A stretch of 64,000 bases of DNA, taken from the NCBI RefSeq assembly GCF_001423885.1, contig NZ_LMPP01000001.1, positions 1,341,543-1,405,542 of the forward strand, written 5' to 3'. Position 1 is the stretch's first letter. The number at the start of each line of letters is the position of its first letter. The notes beneath the pieces were generated by a model, which saw only the letters and a program-made list of their open reading frames with translations, was not told the DNA's origin and did not search any database. The translations under genes and the position numbers were made by a program. This DNA comes from Rathayibacter sp. Leaf185. Lineage in GTDB: Bacteria; Actinomycetota; Actinomycetes; Actinomycetales; Microbacteriaceae. This document shows positions 5,468 through 22,748 of this stretch, in pieces.

Positions 5468-6772
5468 TCAGCGGAGCCAGGCGTCGCTGCGGACGCGGAG
5501 TCCGAGCGTGAGTGCGCGGGCGCCCAGGTAGCCCAGCGCGAAGGCGATCCAGAGGGCCAGGAGGCGCCATTCCGCGGGCGCGGCGGGCGCGAGAAGGGCC
5601 AGAGGAGTGAAGATCGCGAGGTTCACCAGGCCGCTCAGAGCGAGGTAGCGGCCGTCTCCCGCGCCGATCAGGACGCCGTCGAGAACGAACACGTAGCCTC
5701 CGAGCGGTGCCGTGAGGCCGACGATCGCGAGGACAGCGGGCAGCAGGCGGAGCACCTCCGGATCGCTCGAGAAGACGTACGGCAGGTAACCGCTCGACAG
5801 GGTTACGAGTGCTCCGAGTGCGATTCCCGAGCCGATTCCCCAGGTCACACACCGTTTCGTGACCGCGCGCGCCTCCGCTCGGGCACCGGCACCGAGGAGT
5901 CGGCCGAGCAGGGCCTGCGCGGCGATCGCCACCGCATCGAGCGCGAAGGCGACCGTCGAGAAGACGGTCATCGCGACCTGGAACGCACCGAGCTCCTCCG
6001 CCCCGAGCGCCGATGCGACGGCGACCGCGAGCAGGATCGCCGCCCGCAGGCTCGCCGTGCGCAGCAGCATCCAGCCACCCGATCCGGCGGAGGAGCGGAG
6101 CCCCGCGAGGTGGGGTCGGAGCGGCGCGCGGACCCGCCGGGCGAGCCGCACGGCGACTCCCGCGTAGGCCGCGAACATCGCCCACTGGGCCACCACCGTC
6201 CCCAGAGCCGACCCGGTTATCCCCAGGCCGACGGGGTAGATCAGCACCGCGTTGAGGGCCGCGTTGAGCGCGAATCCGCCCGCCGCGATGACCAGCGGAG
6301 TGCGGGTGTCCTGGAAGCCGCGGAGGAGTCCGGTGAGGGCGAAGACGCCCAGCATCGCGGGGATGCCCGCCATGCTGACCGAGAGGTAGCGGACACCGGC
6401 GTCCGCCACCGCCGGCTCCGCGCCGAAGAGGCCGATCAGCACCGGGCTGAGGATCGCGCCGGCCACGGCGATCGCGGCGCCGAGGGCGAGGGCGAGCCAG
6501 CCGCCGTCGATCCCGGCAGCCACCGCGCGGCGCTCGTCGCCCTCGCCGAGCGCGCGGCCGACGCGGGGCGTCGTGCTGTAGGCGAGGAACACCATCAGGC
6601 CGACGATCGTCTGGAGCACCGCGCCGCCGAGGGCGAGGCCCGCGAGCGGCACCGCGCCGAGGTGGCCGACGAGGGCGGAGTCGGTGAGCAGGAAGAGCGG
6701 CTCGGCGATCAGCGAGCCGAGCGCGGGCACGGCGAGCCGCAGGATGCTGCGGTCGAGGGTGCGGGTGCTCAC
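5468..6772 (-). CDS. MATE family efflux transporter (DinF-like)
   Basis: 434-residue multidrug and toxic compound extrusion transporter of the inner membrane with about 12 helices arranged as two similar halves. The opening RSILRLAVPALGSLIAEPLFLLTDSALVGHLG matches the first MATE helix region, and GLLRGFQDTRTPL and DGVLIGAGDGRYLA are the equivalent loops of each half. The start is GTG at 6772. It exports organic cations or other toxic compounds using ion gradients; the specific substrate is unknown. It stands alone, convergent with the LacI-type gene, with DnaA-box-like sequences directly beyond its stop. Confidence 0.9.
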   Translation of the reverse strand: MSTRTLDRSILRLAVPALGSLIAEPLFLLTDSALVGHLGAVPLAGLALGGAVLQTIVGLMVFLAYSTTPRVGRALGEGDERRAVAAGIDGGWLALALGAAIAVAGAILSPVLIGLFGAEPAVADAGVRYLSVSMAGIPAMLGVFALTGLLRGFQDTRTPLVIAAGGFALNAALNAVLIYPVGLGITGSALGTVVAQWAMFAAYAGVAVRLARRVRAPLRPHLAGLRSSAGSGGWMLLRTASLRAAILLAVAVASALGAEELGAFQVAMTVFSTVAFALDAVAIAAQALLGRLLGAGARAEARAVTKRCVTWGIGSGIALGALVTLSSGYLPYVFSSDPEVLRLLPAVLAIVGLTAPLGGYVFVLDGVLIGAGDGRYLALSGLVNLAIFTPLALLAPAAPAEWRLLALWIAFALGYLGARALTLGLRVRSDAWLR

Positions 6773-6833
6773 CGCTCGACGCTAGCGGGCCCGGCGCCGT
6801 CGTCGGGCGACGTCGGACCGTCGACCGCGCCCT

Positions 6834-7244
6834 CTACTCCGGGTCGCCTCGACGCTCGGGGGTCCCCTCGCCGCGCGGAGCGACCGCCGCCAGCCACTGG
6901 CGCACGAGCGGGGTCAGCAGGTGCGGATCCTCGTCGTGGTCGAGGGTGCGCACGGCCCGGTCGGGGGCGCGCCAGTCGAGACGCGGGTCCTCGAGGACCG
7001 GGGCGACGGAGTCGGCGCGTGCCGCGACTCCGCGGTGCAGGATCACCTCGACGCGGTCGCCCGGCCGCAGGCGCAGGGTCACCAGGTGCTCGCCGAGCGC
7101 GTAGCTCGGCGCGTTCCACTTGACCGACTCGACGAGGCGGTCGTCGGCGGCGAGCACCGCCTCCCGCGCCCCCTCGATCTGCTCGCGTCGGGGGTGCGCC
7201 ATCGCGTCGACGTGAGCGGTCGCGGAGGCGTCGAGTCGGGTCAT
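6834..7244 (-). CDS. DUF1801 domain-containing protein
   Basis: 136 residues from ATG at 7244. The conserved pattern VESVKWNAPSYALGEHLVTLRLRPGDRVEVILHRG is that of the DUF1801/YdhG-like fold, a small alpha-beta protein of unknown biochemical role. No membrane segment or signal. It is divergent from the membrane-protein gene at 7324, so the two share a 79-bp promoter region. A start six codons further upstream is possible but lacks a better ribosome site. Confidence 0.8.
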   Translation of the reverse strand: MTRLDASATAHVDAMAHPRREQIEGAREAVLAADDRLVESVKWNAPSYALGEHLVTLRLRPGDRVEVILHRGVAARADSVAPVLEDPRLDWRAPDRAVRTLDHDEDPHLLTPLVRQWLAAVAPRGEGTPERRGDPE

Positions 7245-9034: not shown

Positions 9035-10285
9035 TCAGGTCGTCTTCACCGCGTTGTCGCCGTGGTTGCCGATCACTTCGTACGCCGTGCTGCCGACCGC
9101 GCGCACCGGCTTCGTGTTCATGTGCCCGGTCGCCCACTGGTTGCCCAGCACCGAGACGGCGCGCGCGTTCAGGGCCTCGACGCAGTGCGTCCAGCCGGCG
9201 CCCGCGTCCTCGCAGGCGAAGATGTTGCCGGTGATGTTGAAGCCCACGGTGCGGGCGGTCGGCGAGACGCCCGTGATCGCGATCGCGGGGTAGGTGTTCG
9301 CCGCGGCCTTGCCTCCGTTGCTGATCGCGTTGCCGACGATCTGGATCTGCGCCAGATCCTCGGTCAGCCACGGCGGCATCGTGTAGACGAGCGACTGGCG
9401 CCGCGCCCCCTCCATGATGTTGTTCGCGATCGTCACCCGCCGGTTGCCGCGCAGCTCGATGTTGATCTGCGGCGAGCCGTCGAGGTGGTTGCCCAGGATG
9501 CGGACCGGCCCGCCCTCGATCGAGAGGTCGGCGTAGGAGGCGCCGATGTTGTTCTCGACGATCCAGGAGTCGATCATCCGGTAGCCCGTCCAGATGCCGG
9601 TGCCGGTGCACTGGTCGATGCTGCAGCGCTGGATGCGGTTGAGCAGCCCCAGGTCGCCGAAGGTGCCGTCGTTCAGGCGCATCCCGTAGTCGGTCCAGCC
9701 GTACAGCTGCAGCGAGTCGAGCACGGTCTTGTCGAGGTGGGCCGAGATGCACGGAGAGCCGAGGTCGTTCGCGTCGAGGATCAGGTTGTCGAAGCGGCAG
9801 GCCGAGAAGGCGCCGGTGACCACGGGCGCATCCGTGAGCGAGCGGATGCGCGTGGACAGCTCGCCCGCCCCGCGGAACGCGATGCTCGCCAGCCCGCTCG
9901 CGCGTCCGATCGACCCGGCGATGCGGTAGATGCCGCGGGGGAAGTAGACGACGCCTCCGTAGGTCGCGAGGGCCGCATCGATCGCGGCGTCGACGGCGGG
10001 GAGGTCGTCGGTGCTGCCGTCGCCGGTCGCGCCGTAGTCGTGCACGTTGTAGACGAGCTCGCCCTTGGCCACGGGGCGCTCGCCGGAGTCGGTGAGCACC
10101 GCGGCCGGGAGCTGCGCGAGGGGCACCGCTCCGGAGGCGTCCAGCCCCGCCACTCCACCGGGCGCGGCGACCTCGGAGTGCAGCACGGGCGAGTCGGGGT
10201 CGGCGGTCGCGAGAGTGGCGCCGAGGGGGGCGGCGAAGAGTCCGCGGCGGGTGAGCTCGGCGGCAGCGACGGAGAGAAGGGGCAT
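9035..10285 (-). CDS. Secreted right-handed beta-helix protein (pectate-lyase-like)
   Basis: 416 residues from ATG at 10285. The N-terminus ELTRRGLFAAPLGATLATA has a twin-Arg motif and a weak hydrophobic stretch, suggesting Tat-type export. NVHDYGATGDGSTDDLPAVDAAIDAA is the start of the pectate lyase/GH28-like fold, followed by YFPRGIYRIAG and many short beta-helix rungs (RILGNHLDGS, RVTIANNIMEG, IQIVGNAISNGG, FNITGNIFACED). It probably cuts or binds a polysaccharide outside the cell. Catalytic residues cannot be assigned by eye. It is divergent from the c-di-GMP/exopolysaccharide operon (110-bp gap), so it may trim or release that polymer; this is inference. Confidence 0.82.
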   Translation of the reverse strand: MPLLSVAAAELTRRGLFAAPLGATLATADPDSPVLHSEVAAPGGVAGLDASGAVPLAQLPAAVLTDSGERPVAKGELVYNVHDYGATGDGSTDDLPAVDAAIDAALATYGGVVYFPRGIYRIAGSIGRASGLASIAFRGAGELSTRIRSLTDAPVVTGAFSACRFDNLILDANDLGSPCISAHLDKTVLDSLQLYGWTDYGMRLNDGTFGDLGLLNRIQRCSIDQCTGTGIWTGYRMIDSWIVENNIGASYADLSIEGGPVRILGNHLDGSPQINIELRGNRRVTIANNIMEGARRQSLVYTMPPWLTEDLAQIQIVGNAISNGGKAAANTYPAIAITGVSPTARTVGFNITGNIFACEDAGAGWTHCVEALNARAVSVLGNQWATGHMNTKPVRAVGSTAYEVIGNHGDNAVKTT

Positions 10286-10395: not shown

Positions 10396-12729
10396 ATGCA
10401 GCGCACCCACGGGCTCAGGGCCCTCGACGTCGTGATCAGCGTGCTGCTCGGCGTCTTCGCGCTGGGGCTGATCGCCAACTCGGTGCGCCTGCTCATCATC
10501 ACGCCTCCGCTGAGCTGGGCGTTCGTGGTCGCGTTCGGCCTCGCCGTGGGCCTCACCGCCGCGCTGCGGATCCCGCTCGGCCGCCGCTCCGGCATGCCGG
10601 TGATGGGGCTGACCGTGTCGCTCCTGGTCGTCCTGCAGCCGGGGGTGGACCCGCTGCGCCTGCTCGGCGTGTGGACGGCGGCGACCCTCCTCGCCCAGCT
10701 CGTGCAGACCCGCAGCGTCCCGATCGCGGCGTACATCACGGGGCTGGGGGCGTTCTCCGGCCTGGCCTACCTGACCGTGTTCGATCTGCTGCGCGGCCCC
10801 TTCGGCGCCCCTCTCGCCCTCCTGGCGGCGACCGTCGTCCTGCTGCTGGTCATCCTGCTCGTCGACCTGCTCCGCCAGCGGGGGCGCTGGGGCCTGGACT
10901 GGGAGCGGGGCTTCAGCGCGCTCGTGCCGAAGCGGGTCGGGCTGATGGCCCTGCTGCTCTGGGCGTTCGGCACCGGCATCTGGTTCCTCGACAGCATCGT
11001 CGTGCCGGCGATGGCGGGCGACCCGGCGATCGAGCAGAGCCCGCTGCTGCTGCTCGTGGTCGGCGCCGTCGTCTTCAGCGTGGCGAAGCGGATCGAGGTG
11101 CGCCGGGTGCGCAGGCGCCTCGCCGGGGTCCTCGACGCGGCGCTCGAGCTGCCGTGGGGCGGAGTCTCGCAGGCCGAGGGCGCGATCATCGCGCACGCGC
11201 GGACCTCGATCGAGGCCGACCGGATCGAGGTGCGCGACGAGCCCGCCTCGGGCAGCGAGATCGGCTCGGTGATGCTGCTCCCCGGCGGCCGGACCCGCTT
11301 CGTCGTCGCGTCGAAGCGGCTCAGCCCCACCCCGTTCAGCACCGAGGACGAGCAGATCCTCGACGCCCTGGCGCACATGGGCACCGACACGCTCGGCGCG
11401 CGCGACGATGTGGAGTCGCTGCGCCGCTACGTCGACCGCGACCCGCTCACAGGTCTGCCGAACCAGCGCGCGTTCCAGTCGGCGCTCGCGACCTACAACC
11501 GCGACCGCCGGCCGTTCGAGGGCATCGCGGTGCTCTTCCTCGACCTCGACGACTTCAAGGATCTGAACGACGGTCGCGGTCACCACGTCGGCGACAAGAT
11601 GCTCCGGCTGGTGGGGCAGCGGCTGGCCGAGGTCACGGCCGAGGGCGGCTTCGCGGCGCGCGTCGGCGGCGACGAGTTCGTGCTGATCCTCCGCGGCCTG
11701 CGCTCGGCCGACGACGCGCGCAGGCGCGCCGAGGCGCTCGTCGAGACCGTCAGTGCCACGGCGACGGTCGAGGGCGACACTCTCGCCCCGGTCGTGAGCG
11801 TCGGAGTCGCGTTCTCGGCGCACGAGGAGTCGGATCCGTCGACCATCGTCATCGAGGCCGACCGCAGCATGCTCGCCCTCAAGCGCGGGAGGGGCCGGGC
11901 CGGGCGCGAGCGCTCGAGCGCGATCGACGTCACCTCTGTGCTCGCGGATCCGGTGCGGGAGGCGGCGTCCCGAGCCGTCCGCGACCGCACCCTCGACGTC
12001 GCCTTCCAGCCCATCGTCGAGCTCGCGACCAACCGCATCTGGGCGTTCGAGGCGCTGGTGCGCCTCGAGGATCCGATCGTCGGCCGCATCGACCCGGTCG
12101 ACCTCATCGAGAAGGTGCGCGAGCTCGACCTGCTCGACGATCTCACCGTGCAGGTCGTCGACAAGGCGATGTCGGCGGCCGAGAGCTTCCGCGGCACCGG
12201 GGTGGGCATCGAGTGCATGACGGTCAACGTCGATCTCGAGCAGCTGGCGCCGGGCCGGCTCGGCGATCACCTGGCCGAGGTGCCGGCACGGTTCCCCGGC
12301 GTGCGCCTGTGCATCGAGCTCAACGAGCGCACTCTCGACGGCGCGACCGACGCCCTCCGCCAGGACGCCCAGCGGCTGCGCGACAGGGGAGTGCTGATCG
12401 CGCTCGACGACTACGGCGCGCAGGGCTCCTCCGCGGCGTCGCTGGCGACCTTCCCACTCGACATCGTGAAGCTCGACCGGGTGCTGATCACCGATCTCGC
12501 GACCGAGGTCCGCAAGCGCGAGATCGTGCGGGCCCTGCAGTCGTACTCGGTGGCGACGGGGGTGCGCGTGATCGTCGAGGGTGCGGAGGACCTCGAGACG
12601 ATCGACCTCCTCCGCGAGCTCGGAGTGACCGACGTGCAAGGGTACGTCTTCGGTCGCCCCGTCACCCGTACGGGGGCGGAGCACCGATTGCTGACCACCG
12701 GATCGGTCGCCGTGCACTCCCTAGACTGA
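10396..12729 (+). CDS. Membrane GGDEF-EAL protein (c-di-GMP synthesis/turnover)
   Basis: 777 residues. Residues 1-230 hold about seven membrane helices; 240-340 look like a degenerate GAF-type domain ending in PFSTEDEQILDALAHMG; the GGDEF domain follows RDPLTGLPNQRAF, with an intact GGDEF at 424-428; the EAL domain starts near 530, with EAL at 552-554, NVDLEQL, ELNERTL, LDDYG, KLD and VEGAED retained. Both diguanylate cyclase and phosphodiesterase activities are therefore possible. No RxxD inhibitory site precedes the GGDEF (the segment is EGGFAAR), so product inhibition is probably absent. It is the first gene of a four-gene set whose last product carries a c-di-GMP-binding MshEN domain, suggesting local signalling to that synthase. 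Confidence 0.93.
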   Translation: MQRTHGLRALDVVISVLLGVFALGLIANSVRLLIITPPLSWAFVVAFGLAVGLTAALRIPLGRRSGMPVMGLTVSLLVVLQPGVDPLRLLGVWTAATLLAQLVQTRSVPIAAYITGLGAFSGLAYLTVFDLLRGPFGAPLALLAATVVLLLVILLVDLLRQRGRWGLDWERGFSALVPKRVGLMALLLWAFGTGIWFLDSIVVPAMAGDPAIEQSPLLLLVVGAVVFSVAKRIEVRRVRRRLAGVLDAALELPWGGVSQAEGAIIAHARTSIEADRIEVRDEPASGSEIGSVMLLPGGRTRFVVASKRLSPTPFSTEDEQILDALAHMGTDTLGARDDVESLRRYVDRDPLTGLPNQRAFQSALATYNRDRRPFEGIAVLFLDLDDFKDLNDGRGHHVGDKMLRLVGQRLAEVTAEGGFAARVGGDEFVLILRGLRSADDARRRAEALVETVSATATVEGDTLAPVVSVGVAFSAHEESDPSTIVIEADRSMLALKRGRGRAGRERSSAIDVTSVLADPVREAASRAVRDRTLDVAFQPIVELATNRIWAFEALVRLEDPIVGRIDPVDLIEKVRELDLLDDLTVQVVDKAMSAAESFRGTGVGIECMTVNVDLEQLAPGRLGDHLAEVPARFPGVRLCIELNERTLDGATDALRQDAQRLRDRGVLIALDDYGAQGSSAASLATFPLDIVKLDRVLITDLATEVRKREIVRALQSYSVATGVRVIVEGAEDLETIDLLRELGVTDVQGYVFGRPVTRTGAEHRLLTTGSVAVHSLD

Positions 12730-12851
12730 CGCGAGAACGGGGCGTCGGAGCCGAATTCCACGGCTCGCGCCGAGGCCCGGGAACGACCGTTCGACTCCAT
12801 CCTCGAGCGTCGGCCGGTCCGCGCTCCCGTATGCCGATCGGATCGTCGTTC

Positions 12852-14915
12852 ATGCCTTCACCAGCCCTGCACCGGCGTGCTCTCGCGGCGGTCGCCGCAC
12901 CCGCTCTCTGCGCCGTCCTGGTCTTCGGGGCCGCCTCGAGCGCCTCCGCCGCCGAGTTCGTCGACCCGGCGACCGGATCGGTCGTGCAGGCCTCCGCCAG
13001 CGCCGCGACCCTCACCGTCACCGCGGGCGCGGCGTTCCAGTACCTCACCCTCCCGGTCGCCGACGGCGTCACTCCGACCCGCGTGCTCGCCTCCCTGCAG
13101 GCCGCCGAACCGCTGACCGGCTCGCTCGCCGTCATCGTCTCGGGCCGCACCGTGCAGACCGTCGACGCGGCGACCGCGACCCGGCTCGACCTCGCGCTCC
13201 AGCCGGGCGACGTCGTCGACGGCGTCCTCGCGATCGGCTTCCAGCTGACCGGAGCGACCGGCTCGGCCGGCGCGCTCTGCGAGGTGCAGGGGCGCTCGCT
13301 CACGGTCTCGGACATCGGGATCGTCGGCGACGGCGTGCCCGCGGCGCCCACCACCGTCGGCGACTTCTTCGGCGACTCCGTCACGGCCGTCTCGATCGTG
13401 GTGCCCGACGGCGCCGACGACGCCCTGCGCGCCGCGGGGCTCTCGGCCGCCGCCTCGCTGGCCGCGCGCTACTCCTCCGGAACCGTGATCACCGTCTCGG
13501 AGGCGAGCGACACCGACGGCCGCCCCGAGCTCGACCCCGCGCAGGGCCGCCTCGTGACCTTCGCCGCGGCCGACGGCGACGTCGTCACGTCGATCAGCGA
13601 CGAGAACGGCGTGCCCGCGCTCACGCTCAGCGGCGCCTCCGGAGACCTCGCCGCCGCCGGAGCCGCACTCGGCAGCGAGTACCGCGGTCTCGCCTCGAGC
13701 GCGACGACCACCGGCCTCGCGCAGAAGGTGGTGCCGTCGAGCTCGCTCGAGCACACCCTCGCCGACTTCGGCGCCGACCGGATCGCCCTCGGCAGCACCG
13801 GTGCCGCGGCCAGCTACACGACCATCACGCAGTCCGCGTTCGGCGGACCGGTCTCGGCGGTCGACCTCCAGCTGGTCGGCACGCACTCCGCGATCCCCGA
13901 GGGCGTCACGGCCACGGCCAACGTCTACTGGAACGACTTCCTGATCGGCTCGAGCGTGCTCGGCACCGACACCGCCGTCGACATGGAGCTGTCGGTCCCG
14001 ACCGGCCAGCTCGGCTCCTCGAACGGACTCTCGGTGCGCCTCTCGGCAGTGCGCGACGGCGACGGCCTCTGCATCGGCTCGGCCGACTCCGTGCCGATCG
14101 AGTTCTTCGTCGACGGAGCCTCCTCCACCGTCACCGGTGTCCGCGGCGAGTCCGCTGCGCCCGGCTTCGGCCGCTTCCCGCAGGCCTTCGGCGGCGAGCT
14201 CGCCGTGGCGTTCGGCGACTCGGCGACCGGTGCCGACGCTCTGCGCAGCGCGGGCGACCTCGTCGCGGCGCTGCAGCGGGTCGACTCCTCGCCGCTCGCG
14301 GTGTCGGTCGTCGGCCTCGACGACTTCGTCGACTCCGACCGCTCGGGCCTGGTGGTCGGCGCCGGCTCGGCCGACGCGGAGGCGCTCAAGACTCCGCTGC
14401 GCCTCGCCGAGTTCACCGCCATCGACGCGTCGAGCCTGAGCTACGGAGTCGGCACCGAGGCGCCCTACGCGGCTCTCGAGGCCTTCACCACCGAGGGTCG
14501 CGACCTGGTGCTGCTCGGCGGCTGGAGCCCCGACGGCGACGCGACCGCCTCCTCCGCGCTGCAGGCGTCGATCGGCGCCTACGCCGCCGAGGAGGGCTGG
14601 ACCTCGCTCTCGGGCAACCTGGCAGTGACCGGCTCGGAGGCGTCGGAACCGGTGCAGATCGACAGCAACGAGATCACGCCGCAGGACGAGGTCAAGGACG
14701 ACTACTCGGCGTACGGGATCTGGTTCGTCGTCGCGGTCGTCGTCATCGGCCTGCTGATCCTGCTCGGCTGGCTCGCCCGCCGCCGCCGGGCGCGCAAGGT
14801 CGCGGCGTACGTCGACGCGCAGGAGCGCGCCGCCGTGGAGCCGGATGCCACGACCGGGACGGCCCCCCACGGCCAGCACGCCGCCGACCCCGCGCGCCCC
14901 GACTCCTCCGACTGA
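12852..14915 (+). CDS. BcsB-like cell-surface protein
   Basis: 687 residues. Residues 1-36 are a signal peptide (ending ASSASA), followed by two alternating pairs of beta-rich and alpha/beta segments: TAGAAFQYLTLPVADGVTPTRV and FGGPVSAVDLQLVGTHSAIP resemble the carbohydrate-binding-like parts of BcsB, and SVTAVSIVVPDGADDALRAA and GELAVAFGDSATGADALRSA the flavodoxin-like parts. One membrane helix lies at about 621-645 (IWFVVAVVVIGLLILLGWLA), then a basic cytoplasmic tail. The layout fits BcsB, the anchored partner that guides polymer out of a BcsA-type synthase; sequence identity to BcsB is low, so this is structural inference. ATG at 12852 is used; an in-frame ATG at 12831 is possible. It is followed after 7 bp by the GT-C gene. 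Confidence 0.7.
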   Translation: MPSPALHRRALAAVAAPALCAVLVFGAASSASAAEFVDPATGSVVQASASAATLTVTAGAAFQYLTLPVADGVTPTRVLASLQAAEPLTGSLAVIVSGRTVQTVDAATATRLDLALQPGDVVDGVLAIGFQLTGATGSAGALCEVQGRSLTVSDIGIVGDGVPAAPTTVGDFFGDSVTAVSIVVPDGADDALRAAGLSAAASLAARYSSGTVITVSEASDTDGRPELDPAQGRLVTFAAADGDVVTSISDENGVPALTLSGASGDLAAAGAALGSEYRGLASSATTTGLAQKVVPSSSLEHTLADFGADRIALGSTGAAASYTTITQSAFGGPVSAVDLQLVGTHSAIPEGVTATANVYWNDFLIGSSVLGTDTAVDMELSVPTGQLGSSNGLSVRLSAVRDGDGLCIGSADSVPIEFFVDGASSTVTGVRGESAAPGFGRFPQAFGGELAVAFGDSATGADALRSAGDLVAALQRVDSSPLAVSVVGLDDFVDSDRSGLVVGAGSADAEALKTPLRLAEFTAIDASSLSYGVGTEAPYAALEAFTTEGRDLVLLGGWSPDGDATASSALQASIGAYAAEEGWTSLSGNLAVTGSEASEPVQIDSNEITPQDEVKDDYSAYGIWFVVAVVVIGLLILLGWLARRRRARKVAAYVDAQERAAVEPDATTGTAPHGQHAADPARPDSSD

Positions 14916-14922
14916 GCACGCC

Positions 14923-16599
14923 GTGACCAGCACGATCGCCGCACCGCCGGCCGCGCCGCCCGCGGCCCGCCCGTGGTGGCTGGGCGCCTGGGACCGGCTC
15001 GGGCAGCCCGTGACCGGCCGACAGGTGCCGGGCACGGTCGTCGTCCTGGTCGTCTCGCTCCTGGTCGGCTTCGCCGCGTGCCTGGTGACGACGTCCTCCG
15101 GCATCAACCTCGCCTACGCCGACACGCAGAGCCACCTCGCGATCTCGCGGCGCATCTTCGACTCGAAGGCGCCCGGATTCACGCAGCTCGGCACGGTGTG
15201 GCTGCCGGTCCCGAGCCTCATCCTGATCCCGTTCGTGCAGTCGCTGTGGCTCTGGCACACCGGCTGGGCCGCGGGCCTGCTCGGCATGATCTGCCTCGCC
15301 GGGACCGCCTGCGGGGTCTACCGGATCTCGGCGCGGGTGGGCCACCTCCGCGCCGGCCGCATCACCGCCGTGCTGCTGGTGCTGGCGAACCCCGGGGTGC
15401 TCTACGCGTTCTCGACCGCGATGACGGAGCCGGTGCTCATCGTCACCATGGTCGGCTGCTTCGCGGGGCTCTCGCACTGGGTCACCAGCCGCCGCACTCT
15501 GATGGCCGGCGAGATGATGGTCTTCTGCGGCCTGCCCGCGGCGGCCGCGACGCTCTCGCGGTACGAGGGCTGGGTCCTCGTGGTCGGCGGCACGCTCGTC
15601 GTGCTGATCGTCGCCTGGCGCCGCAAGAAGTCGCTCTTCTACGCCGTGAAGATGGCCTGCGCCTTCGGGATCCTGCCGCTGATCTCGATCGTCTGGTGGC
15701 TGGTCTACAACTTCACCGTCTACTCCAACCCGCTCGAGTTCATGAACGGGCAGTACTCGGCCGCGAACCTGCAGAAGGCCGTCGCCGACGCGGGACTGCT
15801 GGCCTACCAGGGCAACGCGGGTCTGACGCTCTGGTCGTACAACTGGGCGGTGCTCGAGACCTCGGGCCTCGTCACGGTCGCCCTCGGCATCGCCGGCGCT
15901 CTCGTGCTCGCGTGGCGCCGCGGGATCTCGGACGACGCCCTCGTGATCTGGCTGATGATCGTCTCGTACGCGTTCTCGCTCCTGAGCCTCTACCTCGGCC
16001 AGACGCACATGAACAACGACCAGACCCTGCCGACGAACTGGTGGAACAACCGCTACGCGCTGTCGGTGCTGCCGTTCCTCGCGGTGCTGGCGGCGGTGCT
16101 CGTCGACGCGCTGCGGCGCCTCCCGCGGGTCGGAGCGGGCGCGCTCGGCCTGGTGCTGCTCCTGCTCGGCGCCCAGACGGTGTGGTGGGCGCAGGACCTC
16201 GACCGCAACGCTGTGATCGCCGAGGCGACCGGCTACGTGGGCCTGAAGGAGGCGTCCGGCGCGACCGCCGCCGCCCGCTACCTGGGCGAGCACTACGACG
16301 GCGGGGGCGTGCTGATCGACGAGAGCGCCGCGGGCAACGCGCTCCTGCCCGAGATCGGCATCCCGCTCGCCGAGTACTACAACCGCTCGGCCGGCGAGCT
16401 CTTCGACGAGGCCCTCGCGGCTCCGTACACTCACGCGAAGTGGGTGTTCGTGACCACCGCCGACGCCCCCGAGCTGAGCGAGACCGGAGTCGCCGACCTG
16501 GTCTACGACGCGATCACCCGCGACTCGTCGTTCGACACCCGCTACCGGCCGGTCTTCTCCCAGGGCATCTACGTGATCTACGAGCGGCTCGGAGGCTGA
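14923..16599 (+). CDS. GT-C-type membrane glycosyltransferase (GT39/ArnT-like)
   Basis: 558 residues from GTG at 14923 with about ten to twelve helices. The first long extracytoplasmic loop has YADTQSHLAISRRIFDS, where GT-C enzymes carry an acidic catalytic motif; TWLP-like GTVWLPVPSLILIPF and LSRYEGWVLVVGG follow as in dolichyl- or polyprenyl-phosphate-sugar-using enzymes. The C-terminal 130 residues form a soluble outer domain. It probably transfers a sugar from a polyprenyl-phosphate donor on the outer face. It lies 7 bp after the BcsB-like gene and 2 bp before the GT2 synthase, so it likely modifies the same polymer or its acceptor. Confidence 0.82.
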   Translation: MTSTIAAPPAAPPAARPWWLGAWDRLGQPVTGRQVPGTVVVLVVSLLVGFAACLVTTSSGINLAYADTQSHLAISRRIFDSKAPGFTQLGTVWLPVPSLILIPFVQSLWLWHTGWAAGLLGMICLAGTACGVYRISARVGHLRAGRITAVLLVLANPGVLYAFSTAMTEPVLIVTMVGCFAGLSHWVTSRRTLMAGEMMVFCGLPAAAATLSRYEGWVLVVGGTLVVLIVAWRRKKSLFYAVKMACAFGILPLISIVWWLVYNFTVYSNPLEFMNGQYSAANLQKAVADAGLLAYQGNAGLTLWSYNWAVLETSGLVTVALGIAGALVLAWRRGISDDALVIWLMIVSYAFSLLSLYLGQTHMNNDQTLPTNWWNNRYALSVLPFLAVLAAVLVDALRRLPRVGAGALGLVLLLLGAQTVWWAQDLDRNAVIAEATGYVGLKEASGATAAARYLGEHYDGGGVLIDESAAGNALLPEIGIPLAEYYNRSAGELFDEALAAPYTHAKWVFVTTADAPELSETGVADLVYDAITRDSSFDTRYRPVFSQGIYVIYERLGG

Positions 16600-16601
16600 G
16601 C

Positions 16602-18536
16602 ATGGCGACGACGACGGCCCGCGTGGGCGAGATCCTCCTCGACCGGGGACTCATCAGCCAGGAGCAGCTCGACGAGGCCCTGCGCCGCCAGGCCCGCGAG
16701 GGCGGCCTGCTCGGCCGGCACCTGATCATCGACGGAGCCGTCACCCGGCGCGAGATGTACGCGGCACTCGCCGAGCAGTGGGACGCCCCGATGGTCGACC
16801 TCGTCGAGGAGCCGCCGGAGGCGCAGACGCTCGCCCGCATCGGCCCGATCACCCTCGTCGACGAGGGCTGGGTGCCGTGGCGCAGGCTCGAGGACGGCAC
16901 CGGCGTGATCGCCACCTCCGTGCCGCCGACCGAGGCGGTGCTGGCGCGGGCCCGCGAGCTGATGGGCGTCTCGCGGATCGCGGTGCGGACGACCACCGAC
17001 TGGGACATCTTCATGGCGGTCGAGAACGCGTGCCGTTCCGCGCTGCTGTTCGGCGCCGCCGACGCGCTCGCGGTCGAGAGCGGCGACGAGTCGGCGAAGT
17101 CGGGGCTCCGGCGCTGGCAGGTCGTCACTCCGCTCGTGCTGGCGGCCGTGGTGGTCGCGGGTGTCGTGATCGCGCCGAGCATCACCTTCGTGATCGTGCT
17201 CGCCGCCGCGAACCTTCTGTTCCTGATGAACATCGCCTTCAAGGCCCTGGCCGGCCTGCGTGCGCCGCTCAACAAGAGCTCGGTCACGGCGTGGGAGGAG
17301 GAGGTCGCGATCGAGCGCGGCCGGCGCGGTCTCGCGGTATCGCCTCCGCGCATGACCGACGACGAGCTGCCGATCTACACGATCCTCGTCCCGGCCTACA
17401 AGGAGGCCAACATCATCAGCAAGCTGCTGGTGAACCTCGGCGCGCTCGACTACCCCAAGGCCAAGCTCGAGGTGCTCGTGCTGCTCGAGGCCGACGACGA
17501 CGAGACGATCGGCGCGGTGCGGCGGATGAACCCGCCCGAGTACGTGCGCATGGTGATCGTGCCGCCGGGAGGCCCGCAGACCAAGCCGCGCGCCTGCAAC
17601 TACGGCCTGAGCTTCGCCCGCGGCGAGTTCGTCGTGATCTACGACGCCGAGGACCGGCCCGACCCCGACCAGCTGCGCAAGTGCGTGCGGCTGTTCCGCG
17701 AGGACGAGTTCGAGCGCCGCCACGTGGATCCCGAGCAGAAGCAGCTCGTGTGCCTGCAGGGCGCGCTGAGCTACTTCAACGCCGACTACAACGTGCTGAC
17801 CCGGATGTTCGCGGTCGAGTACGCCCACTGGTTCGGCGCGATGCTCCCCGGCCTCGACCAGTCGCACCTGCCGATCCCGCTCGGCGGCACCTCCAACCAC
17901 TTCGAGACCCGCGTGCTGCGCGAGCTCGGCGCCTGGGACCCGTACAACGTCACGGAGGACGCCGACCTCGGCCTCCGCGTGGCCGCGCACGGCTACCGCG
18001 TCGGCGTCGTCGACTCGAACACGTGGGAGGAGGCGTGCGCCGAGGTCCCCGCGTGGATCAAGCAGCGCACCCGCTGGATCAAGGGCTACATGATGACCGC
18101 GGGCGTGAACACGCGGCACCCCGTTCGCTGGTTCCGCGTCAACGGGATCCTCGGGACGCTGAGCCTCGTCGCGCTGATCATGGGGACGCCGGTGGCGTTC
18201 CTCCTGTACCCGCTCGTGCTGGGCTTCACGGTCGTCACCTACATCGGCGTGCAGTTCCTCGGGCTCGACATCCCGGAGTGGCTGATCGTGGCGGGCACGA
18301 CGAACATGCTGTTCTCGAACGCGCTGATGATCGTGGTGTCGGGGATCGCCGCATGGAAGCGCTACAACTGGCGGGTCGCGGCCTTCGCGGTGCTGAACCC
18401 CGTCTACTGGGTGCTGCACTCGATCTCGGCGTGGCGCGCGGCCTGGCAGATCGTCTTCAGCCCGCACAAGTGGGAGAAGACGCCTCACGGGCTCACGGAG
18501 GACTACGAGGACTCGACGATCGCGGCGCCGGCGTAG
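16602..18536 (+). CDS. MshEN-GT2 membrane glycosyltransferase (c-di-GMP-responsive polymer synthase)
   Basis: 644 residues. Residues 7-95 form an MshEN domain: RVGEILLDRG, LISQEQLDEALRRQ and a second half GLLGRHLIIDGAVTRREM, matching the c-di-GMP-binding pattern R-x-G-x5-G-[LIV]-[LIV] and L-x2-A-L-x2-Q. Two helices at about 170-225 come next, then a GT2 catalytic domain (YTILVPAYKEANI, LLEADDDET, YDAED at 347-351, TED at 451-453, QRTRW at 488-492) and four C-terminal helices. The D, D, TED, QxxRW set is that of processive synthases such as cellulose synthase and of NfrB. In NfrB of E. coli an MshEN domain controls a GT2 in the same way, but at the C-terminus. The polymer is unknown. Confidence 0.9.
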   Translation: MATTTARVGEILLDRGLISQEQLDEALRRQAREGGLLGRHLIIDGAVTRREMYAALAEQWDAPMVDLVEEPPEAQTLARIGPITLVDEGWVPWRRLEDGTGVIATSVPPTEAVLARARELMGVSRIAVRTTTDWDIFMAVENACRSALLFGAADALAVESGDESAKSGLRRWQVVTPLVLAAVVVAGVVIAPSITFVIVLAAANLLFLMNIAFKALAGLRAPLNKSSVTAWEEEVAIERGRRGLAVSPPRMTDDELPIYTILVPAYKEANIISKLLVNLGALDYPKAKLEVLVLLEADDDETIGAVRRMNPPEYVRMVIVPPGGPQTKPRACNYGLSFARGEFVVIYDAEDRPDPDQLRKCVRLFREDEFERRHVDPEQKQLVCLQGALSYFNADYNVLTRMFAVEYAHWFGAMLPGLDQSHLPIPLGGTSNHFETRVLRELGAWDPYNVTEDADLGLRVAAHGYRVGVVDSNTWEEACAEVPAWIKQRTRWIKGYMMTAGVNTRHPVRWFRVNGILGTLSLVALIMGTPVAFLLYPLVLGFTVVTYIGVQFLGLDIPEWLIVAGTTNMLFSNALMIVVSGIAAWKRYNWRVAAFAVLNPVYWVLHSISAWRAAWQIVFSPHKWEKTPHGLTEDYEDSTIAAPA

Positions 18537-18635: not shown

Positions 18636-19166
18636 TCAGGCGGCGCACTCCTGCGACTGCTCGGTGATGATCCACGTGGTGCCGGAGCGGGTCATCACCA
18701 CGGTGCCGCAGTCACCCGAGGCGTACGTGACGAAGAGCGTGGCGTCGGTCGCGGTCTCCTCGCGCACGTCGATGTCGACCTCGGCGCTCCGGCCGGTCGC
18801 GCGGTAGAGCTCGGCGGTCGCGGTGATCATGTCCTCGCAGCTCGCCACCTGGACCGGCCCCGTGGCCTTCATCTCGGCGACCATGCGCGCCGCGAGTTCC
18901 GGGGAGAGCCGGGCGCACGCCAGGGCCGCATCCGGCGCGCGGGAGGCGTCCAGCCACTCGCGGAAGCCGTCCTCCGCGCTCTGCTGCTCCGCCGCCGGAG
19001 CCGCATCAGGCGTCGCCGTGGTGGCCGCCGTCGCCGTGGGGGCGGGCTCCGCTGCCGGTGTCGTCCGTGTCGAGCCCGCCGGGCCCGCGGTGCAGGCGCT
19101 CAACGCGAGGAGCGCGGCGGCGGCGACCCCCAACGCTCCCGTCCATCGTCTCCGTGCCCCGATCAC
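18636..19166 (-). CDS. Putative lipoprotein
   Basis: 176 residues from GTG at 19166. A signal peptide ends in the lipobox LSAC (Cys at about 25), followed by a Thr/Ala/Pro-rich linker (residues 26-65) and a compact C-terminal domain of about 105 residues with four Cys (ALACARL, ASCEDM, GDCGTVV, SQECAA) that could form two disulfides. The fold is reminiscent of small secreted NTF2-like or DUF4878-type domains but I cannot assign it. It is convergent with the GT2 synthase gene, from which it is separated by about 100 bp without a recognisable gene. Confidence 0.8.
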   Translation of the reverse strand: MIGARRRWTGALGVAAAALLALSACTAGPAGSTRTTPAAEPAPTATAATTATPDAAPAAEQQSAEDGFREWLDASRAPDAALACARLSPELAARMVAEMKATGPVQVASCEDMITATAELYRATGRSAEVDIDVREETATDATLFVTYASGDCGTVVMTRSGTTWIITEQSQECAA

Positions 19167-19251: not shown

Positions 19252-20001
19252 CTAGATGTTGAGCCTGTTGAAGATCGGCGCCGGCAGCGCCTTGATCACG
19301 GTCATGATGACGCGCCACTTCACCGGTGCGTAGGCGACGGCGCGGCCGGCGGACATCGCGGCGGCGACGTCCTTCGCGACCGACTCGACGGAGGCGAGCG
19401 ACGCTCCGCTCTGCTTCATCGACGCGGTCATCGGGGTGTCGGTCGGGCCCGGCTTGATCAGCACGACCGAGAGGCGCGAGCCCGCGAGCCGGTGCTGCAG
19501 GCCCTGCGCGAAGCGCTCCACGAGGCCCTTCGCCGAGCCGTAGACGTAGTTGGTCTTGCGGCCGCGGTCGCCGGCGACGGAGCCGATCACGCCGATCGTG
19601 CCGGAGGTGAGCGCGTTCGCGTACGCCTCCATCCACAGGGCGACCGAGACGCCGGTGACCACGAGCACGTCGCGGGCGACGGCGAGGTCGGCCGACGCCT
19701 CCTCCTGGGTCGTCATCGCGCCGTGCGCGATCAGCACGGTGTCGGGGGCGCCGCCCTCGAGCGACGACTCCACGACGGAGGAGATGTCGGCGGGGTCGGT
19801 CAGGTCGACAGCGGACACCGACAGCGCCGCCGTCGGGAAGCGCACGCGCAGATCCGCCGCGAGCTTCTCGAGGCGGGCGGAGTCGCGGCCGACCAGCAGC
19901 GCCGAACGGGCGCCGGTGCCGAGCCAGAGGCGCAGCGTGTGCTCGGCGATGGCCGAGGTCGCTCCGACGACGACGATCTTCGAAGGGGTTCCAGTGGTCA
20001 C
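19252..20001 (-). CDS. dprE2: Decaprenylphosphoryl-2-keto-ribose reductase (DprE2-like SDR)
   Basis: 249-residue SDR starting at GTG 20001. The cofactor motif is VVGATSAIAEHTLRL, the active-site Ser is in GVIGSVAGDRGRK and YxxxK is YVYGSAKG; the C-terminus KALPAPIFNRLNI resembles DprE2. With DprE1 it epimerises decaprenyl-phosphoribose to decaprenyl-phosphoarabinose, the lipid donor of arabinose residues; DprE2 reduces the 2-keto intermediate with NAD(P)H. It starts 2 bp after the DprE1 stop and is the third gene of the gtrA-dprE1-dprE2 set. Confidence 0.88.
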   Translation of the reverse strand: MTTGTPSKIVVVGATSAIAEHTLRLWLGTGARSALLVGRDSARLEKLAADLRVRFPTAALSVSAVDLTDPADISSVVESSLEGGAPDTVLIAHGAMTTQEEASADLAVARDVLVVTGVSVALWMEAYANALTSGTIGVIGSVAGDRGRKTNYVYGSAKGLVERFAQGLQHRLAGSRLSVVLIKPGPTDTPMTASMKQSGASLASVESVAKDVAAAMSAGRAVAYAPVKWRVIMTVIKALPAPIFNRLNI

Positions 20002-20002
20002 G

Positions 20003-21301
20003 TCAGCTCCCGAGCACTCGGCGCGAGAATCCGGAGGAGATCCCCGGGTCGCGCTGTTCCATGAATTCGGCGAGGCGCGGATAGCCGGCCTCGAACATCT
20101 CGCGCGGCATGCGCGCGTCCTTGGCGGGGTAGAGCCGCCCGCCCACCGACGTCACGAGGGCGTCGAGCCGGTCGAACAGCGGCAGCGCGGCCGGCGTGTT
20201 CGGGAAGTCGAGAGCGAAGCAGACGCCCGGCGCGGGGAAGCTCAGCATCCCGGGCGACTCGAGCGACCCGAAGGTCTTCAGCACGCCGAGGAACGAGCCG
20301 GTGCCCGACGCCGCGATCAGCGCGAGCATCTCGCGGGTGACGTCGAGCGCCCCCTCCCACGGCACGGTGCTCTGGTACTGGTAGAAGCCGCGGGGGCCGT
20401 ACATGGTGTTCCAGCCCTGGATCGCGTCGAGCGGGTAGTAGAACTGCTCGTAGTGCTGGACCGAGCGGCCGGCACCGGTCGCCTTGAGGCGGTAGTAGGC
20501 GCGATTCAGCAGCGGCAGTGTCGCGCGGTTCACGACCGACAGCGGGAACGGGAACGGCACCCGCAGCGAGCCCGCCCGGGAGGACGGCAGTTCGGGAGCC
20601 GCGGTCGTGTCGCCGCGGGAGTAGACGCCGCGGCGGCCGCCTCCCGTGGTCACATCGATCCACGCCACGGTGTGCTCGAACGAGTCCATCGACTCGTGCA
20701 CGAGGTCGAGGTACGACTCGAGGCTCTGGAACGGCCTGTCCTCGGTCACGAGCCAGGGGCCCGGTACGCGCTTGAGCCGCAGCTCGACCTCGACGATGAG
20801 GCCGGTGAGCCCCAGCCCGCCGATGGTCGCCCCGAACAGCTCGACGTTCTCGGTCGGGCTGCAGCGCGACGACGAGCCGTCGCTCCGGAGCAGCGTGAAC
20901 GAGACGACGTGGCGCCCGATCGTGCCGGCCGAGGCGTGGTTCTTGCCGTGCACGTCGTTCGCGATCGCGCCCGCCAGGGTCACGTTCTTGGTGCCGGGGG
21001 TGACGGGGAGCATCCAGCCGCGCAGCGAGAAGACGGCCTGCACGTCCTTCAGCAGCACGCCGGGCTCGGCCCGCAGCACGCCGGTCTCGTCGTCGAAGGC
21101 CAGCAGCCGGTCGAAGCCGCTGAAGTCCCAGAGCACTCCGCCGCCGTTGAGCGCGACGTCGCCGTAGCTGCGGCCGACACCGTAGGCGATGCCGCCGTCG
21201 CCGCGCGCGAGAGCGTCCTGCGCCTGCTCGGCGCTCGTGATCGCGACGACCTGGTGCTGGTCGCGCGAGAGCAGGCCCCAGGAGGAGACGGCGGCGGTCA
21301 T
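20003..21301 (-). CDS. dprE1: Decaprenylphosphoryl-beta-D-ribose 2'-oxidase (DprE1-like)
   Basis: 432-residue FAD-dependent oxidase of the vanillyl-alcohol-oxidase fold. GVGRSYGDVALN and PGTKNVTLAGAIANDVHGKNH are the FAD-binding segments; FEHTVAWIDV and GRLYPAKDARM fit DprE1. It oxidises the 2'-hydroxyl of decaprenyl-phosphoribose. The residue equivalent to M. tuberculosis Cys387, the covalent target of benzothiazinones, is Ala363 here; the gapless spacing to the conserved Tyr391 and Lys394 (M. tuberculosis Tyr415 and Lys418) supports the alignment. The start (ATG 21301) overlaps the gtrA stop. Confidence 0.93.
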   Translation of the reverse strand: MTAAVSSWGLLSRDQHQVVAITSAEQAQDALARGDGGIAYGVGRSYGDVALNGGGVLWDFSGFDRLLAFDDETGVLRAEPGVLLKDVQAVFSLRGWMLPVTPGTKNVTLAGAIANDVHGKNHASAGTIGRHVVSFTLLRSDGSSSRCSPTENVELFGATIGGLGLTGLIVEVELRLKRVPGPWLVTEDRPFQSLESYLDLVHESMDSFEHTVAWIDVTTGGGRRGVYSRGDTTAAPELPSSRAGSLRVPFPFPLSVVNRATLPLLNRAYYRLKATGAGRSVQHYEQFYYPLDAIQGWNTMYGPRGFYQYQSTVPWEGALDVTREMLALIAASGTGSFLGVLKTFGSLESPGMLSFPAPGVCFALDFPNTPAALPLFDRLDALVTSVGGRLYPAKDARMPREMFEAGYPRLAEFMEQRDPGISSGFSRRVLGS

Positions 21302-21708
21302 GCTGGCTCCTCACGCGGGCCCTGGAAGGTGACGTTCTTGTCGAGGTGGTACTTGGCGATGTAGCCGATGGCCAGGCCGATGACGGCTCCGGTGTAGCGG
21401 GCGAGATCGGTGCCGAAGAGGTAGTCGAAGCCGAACTCGAAGCCCCAGAAGATCAGGGTGGTCACGCCGCTCATCACGCCGTAGAGGAAGAACGTCCTCA
21501 CTCCGTGCGCCGCATTCATCGTCTCGTGCTTGAAGATGTAGCGCTTGTCGAGGACGTACTTGGCGATCACCCCCGTAAGGGTGCCCGCGAGGACGGCGAC
21601 GATCGTCGCCCACTCACCCGTCATCACGAGCTCGACGAGCATCTGGGTGCCCAGATTCACCGCGGTGGCCAGTGCGGCGAAGGCGATGTACAGCACGGTG
21701 GTCCGCAT
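21298..21708 (-). CDS. GtrA family membrane protein
   Basis: 136 residues from ATG at 21708, with four membrane helices typical of GtrA (FAALATAVNLGTQMLVELV, a second at about 40, VLDKRYIFKHE linker, GVTTLIFWGFEFGFDYLF, and a last helix before YHLDKNVTFQG). GtrA proteins are thought to flip or assist the flipping of polyprenyl-linked sugars; in mycobacteria a GtrA-type protein (Rv3789) sits by the DPA genes. The gene is first in its minus-strand set, overlaps dprE1 by 4 bp, and is divergent from ubiA. A longer upstream start would run into the ubiA promoter. Confidence 0.9.
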   Translation of the reverse strand: MRTTVLYIAFAALATAVNLGTQMLVELVMTGEWATIVAVLAGTLTGVIAKYVLDKRYIFKHETMNAAHGVRTFFLYGVMSGVTTLIFWGFEFGFDYLFGTDLARYTGAVIGLAIGYIAKYHLDKNVTFQGPREEPA

Positions 21709-21863: not shown

Positions 21864-22748
21864 GTGAGTACCGCTCGTGCACTCGTCGCCGCCATGCGCC
21901 CCCGCCAGTGGCTGAAGAACGTCCTGGTCCTCGCCGCTCCGATCGCCTCGGCGCGGATCCTCGAACCCGGGGTCCTGGTGGCCGCCGTCGTCGCCGCGAT
22001 CGCGTTCAGCCTCGCCTCCTCGGGCGGCTACATGCTCAACGACCTGCTCGACATCGAGTCGGACCGCGCCCACCCCAAGAAGCGCTTCCGTGCGATCGCG
22101 TCGGGCGCCCTGCCCGTGCGCGTGGCGTGGGTGGCGGCGTTCGTGCTGATGATCGTGCCTCCGCTGGTCACGTTCCTCGCCGGGTTCACCTGGTTCGCCG
22201 CGACGCTCGCCGGCTACCTGGTCATGCAGATCTCGTACTGCATCTGGCTCAAGCACGAGCCGGTGATCGACATCCTGATCGTGGCGGGCGGATTCGTGCT
22301 GCGCGCGATCTCGGGCGCCGCCGTGGCCGACATCCCGCTCACGCAGTGGTTCCTGCTGGCCGTGTCGTCGGGCTCGCTGTTCATGGTGGCGGGCAAGCGC
22401 TACTCCGAGAAGCTGCAGAGCGAGGGCAAGGAGGAGAGTCACACGCGGACGACCCTCAAGGTCTACACGGCGGGATACCTGCGCTTCATCTGGTCGGTCG
22501 CGGCGTCGCTGACGATGATCTCGTACGCGCTCTGGGCCCTGTTCCTCAACGGCGAGAACTCGCTGTGGTCGATGGCGTCCGTGGTGCCGTTCGGCGCCGC
22601 GCTGTTCCTCTACGCGCTCGACATCGAGAGGGGCCGCGCTTCGGCTCCGGAGGACATCGTCCTGGGCAACATGCGGCTGCTGATCTGCGGGGCGCTGTGG
22701 GCGGCGCTGTTCGTCATCGCGATCGTGACGCGGACGCCCACCGTCTGA
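21864..22748 (+). CDS. ubiA: Decaprenyl-phosphate phosphoribosyltransferase (UbiA family)
   Basis: 294 residues from GTG at 21864, with GAGGAAG 7 nt upstream. It is an integral membrane prenyltransferase-fold protein with nine helices. The first Asp-rich motif is NDLLDIESDRAHPKKRFRAI and the second DIERGRASAPEDIV-like region near the C-terminus; RQWLKNVLVLAAP and GKRYSEKL are characteristic of the decaprenyl-phosphate 5-phosphoribosyltransferase (Rv3806c) branch rather than quinone enzymes. It makes the first DPA-pathway lipid from PRPP and decaprenyl phosphate. The associated phosphatase could be the PAP2 gene at 29811, 7 kb away. Confidence 0.92.
   Translation: MSTARALVAAMRPRQWLKNVLVLAAPIASARILEPGVLVAAVVAAIAFSLASSGGYMLNDLLDIESDRAHPKKRFRAIASGALPVRVAWVAAFVLMIVPPLVTFLAGFTWFAATLAGYLVMQISYCIWLKHEPVIDILIVAGGFVLRAISGAAVADIPLTQWFLLAVSSGSLFMVAGKRYSEKLQSEGKEESHTRTTLKVYTAGYLRFIWSVAASLTMISYALWALFLNGENSLWSMASVVPFGAALFLYALDIERGRASAPEDIVLGNMRLLICGALWAALFVIAIVTRTPTV

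Follow-up and report, generated by a model that had tools for sequence, protein, structure and literature searches.

A putative c-di-GMP-gated exopolysaccharide synthase operon with a BcsB-family protein and a GT-C fold enzyme in Rathayibacter

We analysed a window of 64,000 nucleotides (nt) from Rathayibacter sp. Leaf185 (assembly GCF_001423885.1, contig NZ_LMPP01000001.1, positions 1,341,543-1,405,542); all positions given below are those of the window. Between positions 10396 and 18536 lie four open reading frames (ORFs) of the + strand that probably encode a synthase-dependent exopolysaccharide system gated by cyclic di-GMP (c-di-GMP). A first-pass annotation had described four genes in one direction with gaps of 122, 7 and 2 bp, and the ORF coordinates bear this out. 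A scan for promoters and terminators gave no signal above chance. The genes and their principal domains are the following.

10396..12729, + strand: gene 1, membrane GGDEF-EAL protein, 777 amino acids (aa)
~11434-11889 and ~11959-12660, + strand: GGDEF and EAL domains of gene 1, respectively (Pfam)
12852..14915, + strand: gene 2, predicted BcsB-family extracytoplasmic protein, 687 aa (family profile and AlphaFold model)
14923..16599, + strand: gene 3, predicted GT-C fold membrane glycosyltransferase, 558 aa, GTG start
16602..18536, + strand: gene 4, putative MshEN-GT2 polysaccharide synthase of the processive type, 644 aa
16620..16778, + strand: predicted c-di-GMP-binding motif of MshEN, 53 residues (gene 4 residues 7-59; NF053729)
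17376..18086, + strand: GT2 catalytic domain (gene 4 residues 259-495), with DAED, TED and QRTRW

Gene 4 matches the Pfam families GT2 (PF13641, 94.5 bits) and MshEN (27.0 bits, cutoff 23.1), and its residues 7-59 fit the 53-residue NCBIfam c-di-GMP motif NF053729 without a gap (59.3 bits, cutoff 38). According to the available text of PMC5013675, the MshEN motif is a tandem 24-residue motif with conserved R, L, G and Q residues. When 13 positions drawn from that text were scored with conservative residue sets, gene 4 scored 13 of 13, its departures from the strict motif being L10->V, L54->M and, at an unscored position, R38->L. Scores of 12-13 of 13 were found in all nine genomes of the genus that carry the synthase. 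The active-site set DxD, TED and QxxRW, which the accessible part of PMC8669469 gives as the signature of processive GT2 synthases, is the same in all 12 sequences aligned, gene 4 of the window included. The protein also has C-terminal transmembrane (TM) segments and similarity to BcsA over residues 257-537. Judged by sequence, residues 7-59 hold the motif of a predicted MshEN c-di-GMP receptor domain and gene 4 is a predicted processive GT2 synthase.

Taken singly, genes 2 and 3 exceed the cutoff of no Pfam or NCBIfam family, and gene 2 alone has no sequence match among solved structures. Of 30 gene 2 relatives, however, 18 match Pfam BcsB, and a profile of the gene 2 family matches E. coli BcsB with an E value of 1.5e-7. 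The AlphaFold model of gene 2, a protein with a hydrophobic, signal-like segment at its N-terminus and a single TM segment at its C-terminus, matches BcsB in fold across most of the ectodomain. By family profile and predicted fold, rather than by its own sequence alone, gene 2 is assigned to the BcsB family. A search of solved structures with the profile of gene 3 gave no match by sequence; the AlphaFold model of gene 3 matches GT-C enzymes and has the GT-C fold, so modelled, of a transferase that is a candidate user of a polyprenyl-phosphate sugar.

Gene 1 matches the Pfam GGDEF (120.8 bits) and EAL (153.1 bits) domains and has hydrophobic segments at its N-terminus. With the residues that we take to be the key ones for GGDEF, EAL and the I-site, the GGDEF signature is intact and the EAL residues checked are present; the RxxD I-site is absent, with AEGG in its place. 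By the intact catalytic signatures of both domains, gene 1 appears to be a bifunctional GGDEF-EAL protein. A second GGDEF-EAL gene of this genome, unlinked to the operon, retains the RxxD I-site. The first-pass domain calls (GGDEF-EAL, BcsB-like, GT-C and MshEN-GT2) are thus upheld by the Pfam and NCBIfam matches, the family profiles and the fold comparison of genes 2 and 3.

Genes 2, 3 and 4 recur jointly in many other genomes, and the arrangement is a real one, not a product of chance. We searched 199 Microbacteriaceae genomes for relatives of gene 4 and identified a close group of 12 loci from 10 genomes with at least 46% identity to the window. All three genes were seen in nine of the ten genomes; the exception is G065, whose contig breaks off inside gene 3. 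The orientation differs in G027, with gene 4 pointing towards genes 3 and 2. When named genomes were scanned, 587 relatives of gene 4 were confirmed, and the best 80 of them were analysed. Among these best 80, a BcsB-family gene is found in 43 loci, a relative of gene 3 in 18 and both in 16, the weakest of the trio matches lying near threshold. In 40 of the 43 loci the BcsB-family gene is no more than 300 bp from gene 4 or gene 3, and this holds across phyla. The 16 trio records, two of which are further records of G070 and G027, come from Rathayibacter, Subtercola, Pseudoclavibacter, the Arthrobacter group, Nocardioides, other actinobacteria, and metagenome-assembled genomes (MAGs) of Gemmatimonadota and Acidobacteriota; the trio is more thinly spread in other phyla than in Rathayibacter, Subtercola, Pseudoclavibacter and Arthrobacter. 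One actinobacterial MAG (L062, 1720-7289) carries two BcsB-family genes ahead of its gene 3 and gene 4 relatives.

Within the genus, genes 2 and 3 accompany the synthase in all nine genomes, with each of the two split in two frames in G240. The conserved unit is genes 2-4, without gene 1. The first-pass expectation of a conserved gene order therefore stands for genes 2-4, which do recur together rather than failing to co-occur, and needs amending for gene 1: it is missing from the operon in two of the nine genomes (G237 and G240), and in other genera a GGDEF gene is elsewhere in the neighbourhood or absent from it. In G240 (L135 and L141) the unlinked GGDEF-EAL gene is likewise in two frames; the assembly has many contigs, and the split frames are either real or an assembly error. 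Just past the operon of G116 lies a fragment 99% identical to the C-terminal part of gene 4 (L021 2533-2907; G116:C20:175640-175897).

A second Microbacteriaceae group (L032-L050) has gene 4 relatives that are mostly 41-48% identical to that of the window, with the motif degraded or absent, and no BcsB gene was found within the stretch fetched around them. These relatives are often followed by a small GT-C-like gene, with thrS, HIT and pdxST genes that were, like it, recognised by eye. Pairs of GT2 and GT-C genes are typical of pathways that use polyprenyl-phosphate sugars. Such pairs, the BcsB-less arrangement in these other Microbacteriaceae and a GtrA-family gene close to the operon (see below) would all suit an explanation in which gene 4 makes a polyprenyl-phosphate sugar in the manner of DPM synthase or ArnC, gene 3 passes this sugar on to a glycopolymer of the wall and the BcsB-like protein serves as a scaffold. 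We consider this unlikely, given that gene 4 carries the set D, D, TED, QxxRW of processive synthases, C-terminal TM segments and a match to BcsA, and that 43 of the best 80 of 587 loci include a BcsB-family gene, mostly at 300 bp or less.

If gene 4 is instead a synthase gated by c-di-GMP, its relation to the genes that make the messenger becomes relevant. Of 25 trio loci, 19 have a GGDEF gene no more than 5.5 kb away, where about 0.32 would be expected by a rough estimate from genome sizes and GGDEF counts. The 5.5 kb distance was chosen after the loci had been inspected, and at 4.5 kb one locus (L055) drops out, leaving 18 of 25; GGDEF presence and genome sizes were compiled by hand, and two genomes give two loci each. 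Omitted from the count were L064 (which has a GGDEF-EAL gene) and L062 (which has none), because their genomes had no count; L069, L078 and L101, from other phyla, with no GGDEF gene at 5.5 kb or less; L060 and L061, which duplicate G070 and G027; and L028 and L065, which end inside or before the trio. Placement of the GGDEF gene varies: Rathayibacter has it upstream, Pseudoclavibacter and the Arthrobacter group have it downstream, and in Subtercola boreus it is found beyond a UbiA gene. The only GGDEF gene of the genome is inside the cluster in Pseudoclavibacter caeni (G070), and also in G238 and G245 of the genus Rathayibacter. Read directly, the motif strings of L138 and L031 are GGDEF and SGDEF.

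Fifteen genomes of the genus were compared. Full-length gene 4 is present in nine, and GGDEF genes, one or two each, are present in exactly those nine and in none of the other six (Fisher p 0.0002 for 9/9 vs 0/6). On a ClpB tree, presence of the synthase changes six times, at least five of these on supported branches, and all five independent contrasts agree on the association of synthase and GGDEF (p 0.0625, the minimum attainable with five). A GGDEF gene unlinked to the operon is also found in seven of the nine synthase genomes vs none of the six others (p 0.007), with three tree contrasts in agreement, two ties and none against. Four of these seven unlinked genes were compared; since they are ~78-93% identical to one another and 31-32% identical to gene 1, they form one family distinct from it. 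Because this unlinked family also tracks the synthase, deletion or transfer of a single block does not explain the whole pattern. That these relatives have either both the polymer machinery and the genes for making the messenger, or neither, suggests that c-di-GMP in the synthase-bearing relatives serves mainly this one polymer.

On a wider scale, in 61 genomes, 26 of the 42 that have GGDEF reach a motif score of at least 10, and none of the 19 without GGDEF does, their motif being degraded or absent in every case; the rows are related, and one GGDEF-less genome was entered twice (G027 is G205), so that 18 different genomes lack GGDEF. We also considered whether MshEN integrity tracks BcsB, and this was not supported: the mean motif score is 7.9 in 54 gene 4 rows with BcsB near vs 7.1 in 58 without. 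Integrity of the motif tracks the presence of GGDEF better than that of BcsB. Eight Bacteroidota loci (L093, L097, L104, L109, L112, L115, L129 and L131) have a weak BcsB-family match beside an MshEN-like-GT2 protein with a decayed motif, and no GGDEF match was found in these eight genomes.

Retention of the synthase while the motif decays, as in Bacteroidota, Nocardioides and the second Microbacteriaceae group, could mean that gene 4 is a true polysaccharide synthase ungated by c-di-GMP, with MshEN in a structural role and gene 1 acting on another target. The Arthrobacter group, where motif residues are lost despite neighbouring GGDEF genes, favours this as well. It seems quite improbable for Rathayibacter, where the motif is nearly complete in every synthase genome and co-occurrence of synthase and GGDEF is perfect, partly by way of the unlinked gene. 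Moreover, the genome of the window has one MshEN, two GGDEF and three EAL domains, and neither a PilZ nor another MshEN was found in it.

Several observations weigh against gating of this synthase by c-di-GMP as a general rule, or against the strength of the association. Six of the 25 trio loci in the count lack a GGDEF gene at 5.5 kb or less, and gene 1 is in the operon in seven rather than nine of the synthase genomes, the sole GGDEF gene of G237 and of G240 being located away from it. The motif is degraded or absent in 16 of the 42 genomes with GGDEF. All six Arthrobacter-group synthases (L056-L059, L085 and L091) score 8-9 of 13, having lost the R and first Q, and five of these loci have two neighbours with intact signatures, one a GGDEF and the other a GGDEF-EAL gene. 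Independent pairs at the scale of phyla are too few, with three on supported branches and a mean of 0.9 agreeing, none against. The ClpB tree is that of a single gene, and the presence changes read from it do not separate gain from loss. The search for receptors in the window genome covered MshEN and PilZ alone.

The operon is flanked on both sides by genes that may bear on the nature of the polymer.

9035..10285, - strand: beta-helix, pectate-lyase/rhamnogalacturonase-like protein, divergent neighbour of gene 1 (Pfam PF12708, 49 bits, cutoff 27)
19252..20001, - strand: DprE2-like short-chain dehydrogenase/reductase (SDR) (NF053786, 133.9 bits, cutoff 250)
20003..21301, - strand: DprE1-like oxidase (NF053785, 341.5 bits, cutoff 500)
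21298..21708, - strand: GtrA-family membrane protein (NF037976, 167.8 bits, cutoff 50)
21894..22748, + strand: UbiA-family decaprenyl-phosphate phosphoribosyltransferase (NF008978, 331 bits, cutoff 207)

Between gene 4 and the DprE genes, at 18636-19166, is a small gene whose product looks by eye like a secreted lipoprotein and has no NCBIfam match. A route to decaprenylphosphoryl-arabinose (DPA) by way of UbiA, DprE1 and DprE2 is known from mycobacteria. The DprE1-like gene matches a solved DprE1 with 251.8 bits and the UbiA-family gene matches the solved enzyme 8j8j with 216 bits, and the GtrA-family protein is a candidate flippase for a lipid-linked sugar. These matches suggest that the flank encodes a DPA-type pathway; the unit reaches beyond 10396-18536 to these genes, which give a hint of the polymer's composition. 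DprE genes are beside the trio in seven of the nine synthase genomes of the genus and in all four Subtercola-group loci; in the other two synthase genomes, G116 and G238, DprE1 is present and does not adjoin the operon. A DprE1 orthologue of at least 715 bits was found in the same nine of 15 genus genomes, and the other six reach 39.3 bits at most. In the family sample, DprE1 was detected in five of the 10 close-group genomes vs three of the 189 others. From the presence of DprE1 in the same nine genomes and the linkage of the pathway, it follows that the GT-C enzyme may add arabinofuranose in Rathayibacter and Subtercola, a proposal made from gene context, as the fold does not discriminate between donors. 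The beta-helix gene is beside the operon in all nine synthase genomes and near the trio in two of the four Subtercola-group loci; its product, which has a Tat-like signal as judged by eye, is a candidate polymer-modifying enzyme.

The case for arabinose has its own difficulties. In the fold ranking for gene 3, OST, PMT and ArnT stand above AftB, and arabinosyltransferases are not singled out. The DprE1-like and DprE2-like proteins score under the equivalog cutoffs, and for the latter a generic SDR model scores higher than NF053786 (211 bits, cutoff 267). No DPA-type genes were found around the trio loci of the Arthrobacter group, Pseudoclavibacter or the remaining taxa, and five of the 10 close-group genomes have no DprE1 match. 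Because the operon and the DPA-type genes are adjacent in seven of nine genomes, one deletion or transfer could move both, and the cluster block is indeed jointly absent in G045 and G244. In G045 none of the cluster of the window is present between the counterparts of the genes at 5471-7244 and the gene at 23301, and in G244 about 4.2 kb is left between the outer flanking genes. One flank each was found in G241 and G239, and the contigs of G246 and G247 are too short to judge. At the cluster-less site of G045 (G045:C3 136081-151805), about 15.7 kb of other sequence lies between the flanking genes.

The first-pass annotation had likened the operon to Bcs and NfrAB logic in a different architecture, and the comparison with known systems agrees with this. 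Like BcsA-BcsB, the system combines a GT2 with a BcsB-family partner and the logic of c-di-GMP control; it differs in the N-terminal MshEN, the lack of PilZ and the added GT-C enzyme. That it is an ordinary cellulose (Bcs) operon with MshEN in place of PilZ is suggested by the BcsB fold of gene 2 and the distant BcsA similarity of the GT2, yet this is very improbable and was rejected: gene 4 scores 32.8 bits against the CelA model TIGR03030 (cutoff 699.1), PilZ is absent from the genome, and a GT-C enzyme with DPA-type genes would fit a heteropolymer better. In the available text of PMC8669469 and PMC8669472, the NfrB-NfrA-YbcH system of E. coli, which makes the phage N4 receptor glycan, likewise has a GT2 with a fused MshEN, under local c-di-GMP control and with an uncharacterised polymer, and the latter text mentions one Achromobacter nfr cluster that includes a BcsB homologue. 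Membership in the NfrB family was rejected (NF008411, 25.5 bits, cutoff 1170), with the domain order reversed: MshEN is C-terminal in NfrB and N-terminal in gene 4, and the GT2 domains are 25% identical over 255 aa. The E. coli nfr operon encodes the outer-membrane protein NfrA and has no annotated GT-C gene, whereas a GT-C gene is present here. The mycobacterial DPA pathway with its GT-C arabinosyltransferases (AftB, EmbB) is also among the closest known systems; gene 3 is linked to a pathway of this type by context.

Listeria PssA-E appears to be the nearest Gram-positive parallel, since it too is a c-di-GMP-induced exopolysaccharide system, in which PssC is the GT2 and PssD the BcsB orthologue; its receptor is the degenerate GGDEF protein PssE, and an MshEN fusion is not described in the available text (PMC4125290). 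For R. toxicus, the accessible part of PMC5552033 reports only one exopolysaccharide cluster, which is similar to the wcm-type clusters of Clavibacter and, as far as that text shows, would be of a different kind from the present system. We found no description of this system in the text available from papers on MshEN glycosyltransferases, MshEN and BcsB, or Rathayibacter exopolysaccharide (PMC5013675, PMC8669469, PMC8669472, PMC5552033), nor in that from papers on actinobacterial c-di-GMP and BcsB (PMC4125290, PMC7112194, PMC10374906). Searches for BcsB with Arthrobacter, Rathayibacter arabinofuran, and DprE1 with exopolysaccharide found no account of it either, and a search for Rathayibacter with c-di-GMP found no paper.

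Taken together, the folds, the near-canonical motif, the recurrence of the trio, the GGDEF linkage and the co-occurrence within the genus support the first-pass proposal of local c-di-GMP control over a Bcs/Nfr-like synthase, and we regard a c-di-GMP-gated, synthase-dependent exopolysaccharide system of distinct architecture as the probable function of the locus. Gene 4 would be an inner-membrane GT2 polymerase switched on by c-di-GMP at its N-terminal MshEN domain. Gene 2, anchored by its one C-terminal helix, would receive or guide the chain on the outer face, as its fold suggests, and gene 3 would act outside the membrane, adding a sugar that it takes from a polyprenyl-phosphate carrier. 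For Rathayibacter and Subtercola, arabinofuranose is the likely candidate for this sugar, supplied through the linked UbiA, DprE1, DprE2 and GtrA proteins. Gene 1, with cyclase and phosphodiesterase domains and no I-site, would set the local level of c-di-GMP. A bolder version, which we offer only tentatively, is that c-di-GMP in Rathayibacter forms a one-output circuit, in which GGDEF genes are kept solely to gate the synthase, and that the DprE1/UbiA donor arabinosylates the exopolysaccharide through the GT-C enzyme.

Such a system would extend the known range of synthase-dependent exopolysaccharide systems by a Gram-positive branch gated through MshEN. It would also represent a very small c-di-GMP circuit, with one or two GGDEF genes per genome and one evident receptor in the genome of the window, and the claim is directly testable because, in a single genus, some genomes have both synthase and GGDEF and the others have neither. 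DprE1 is a tuberculosis drug target, and the DprE1/UbiA pathway is best known from mycobacterial cell walls; the DPA-type linkage, if borne out, would give relatives of DprE1 a role in exopolysaccharide synthesis outside the mycobacteria.

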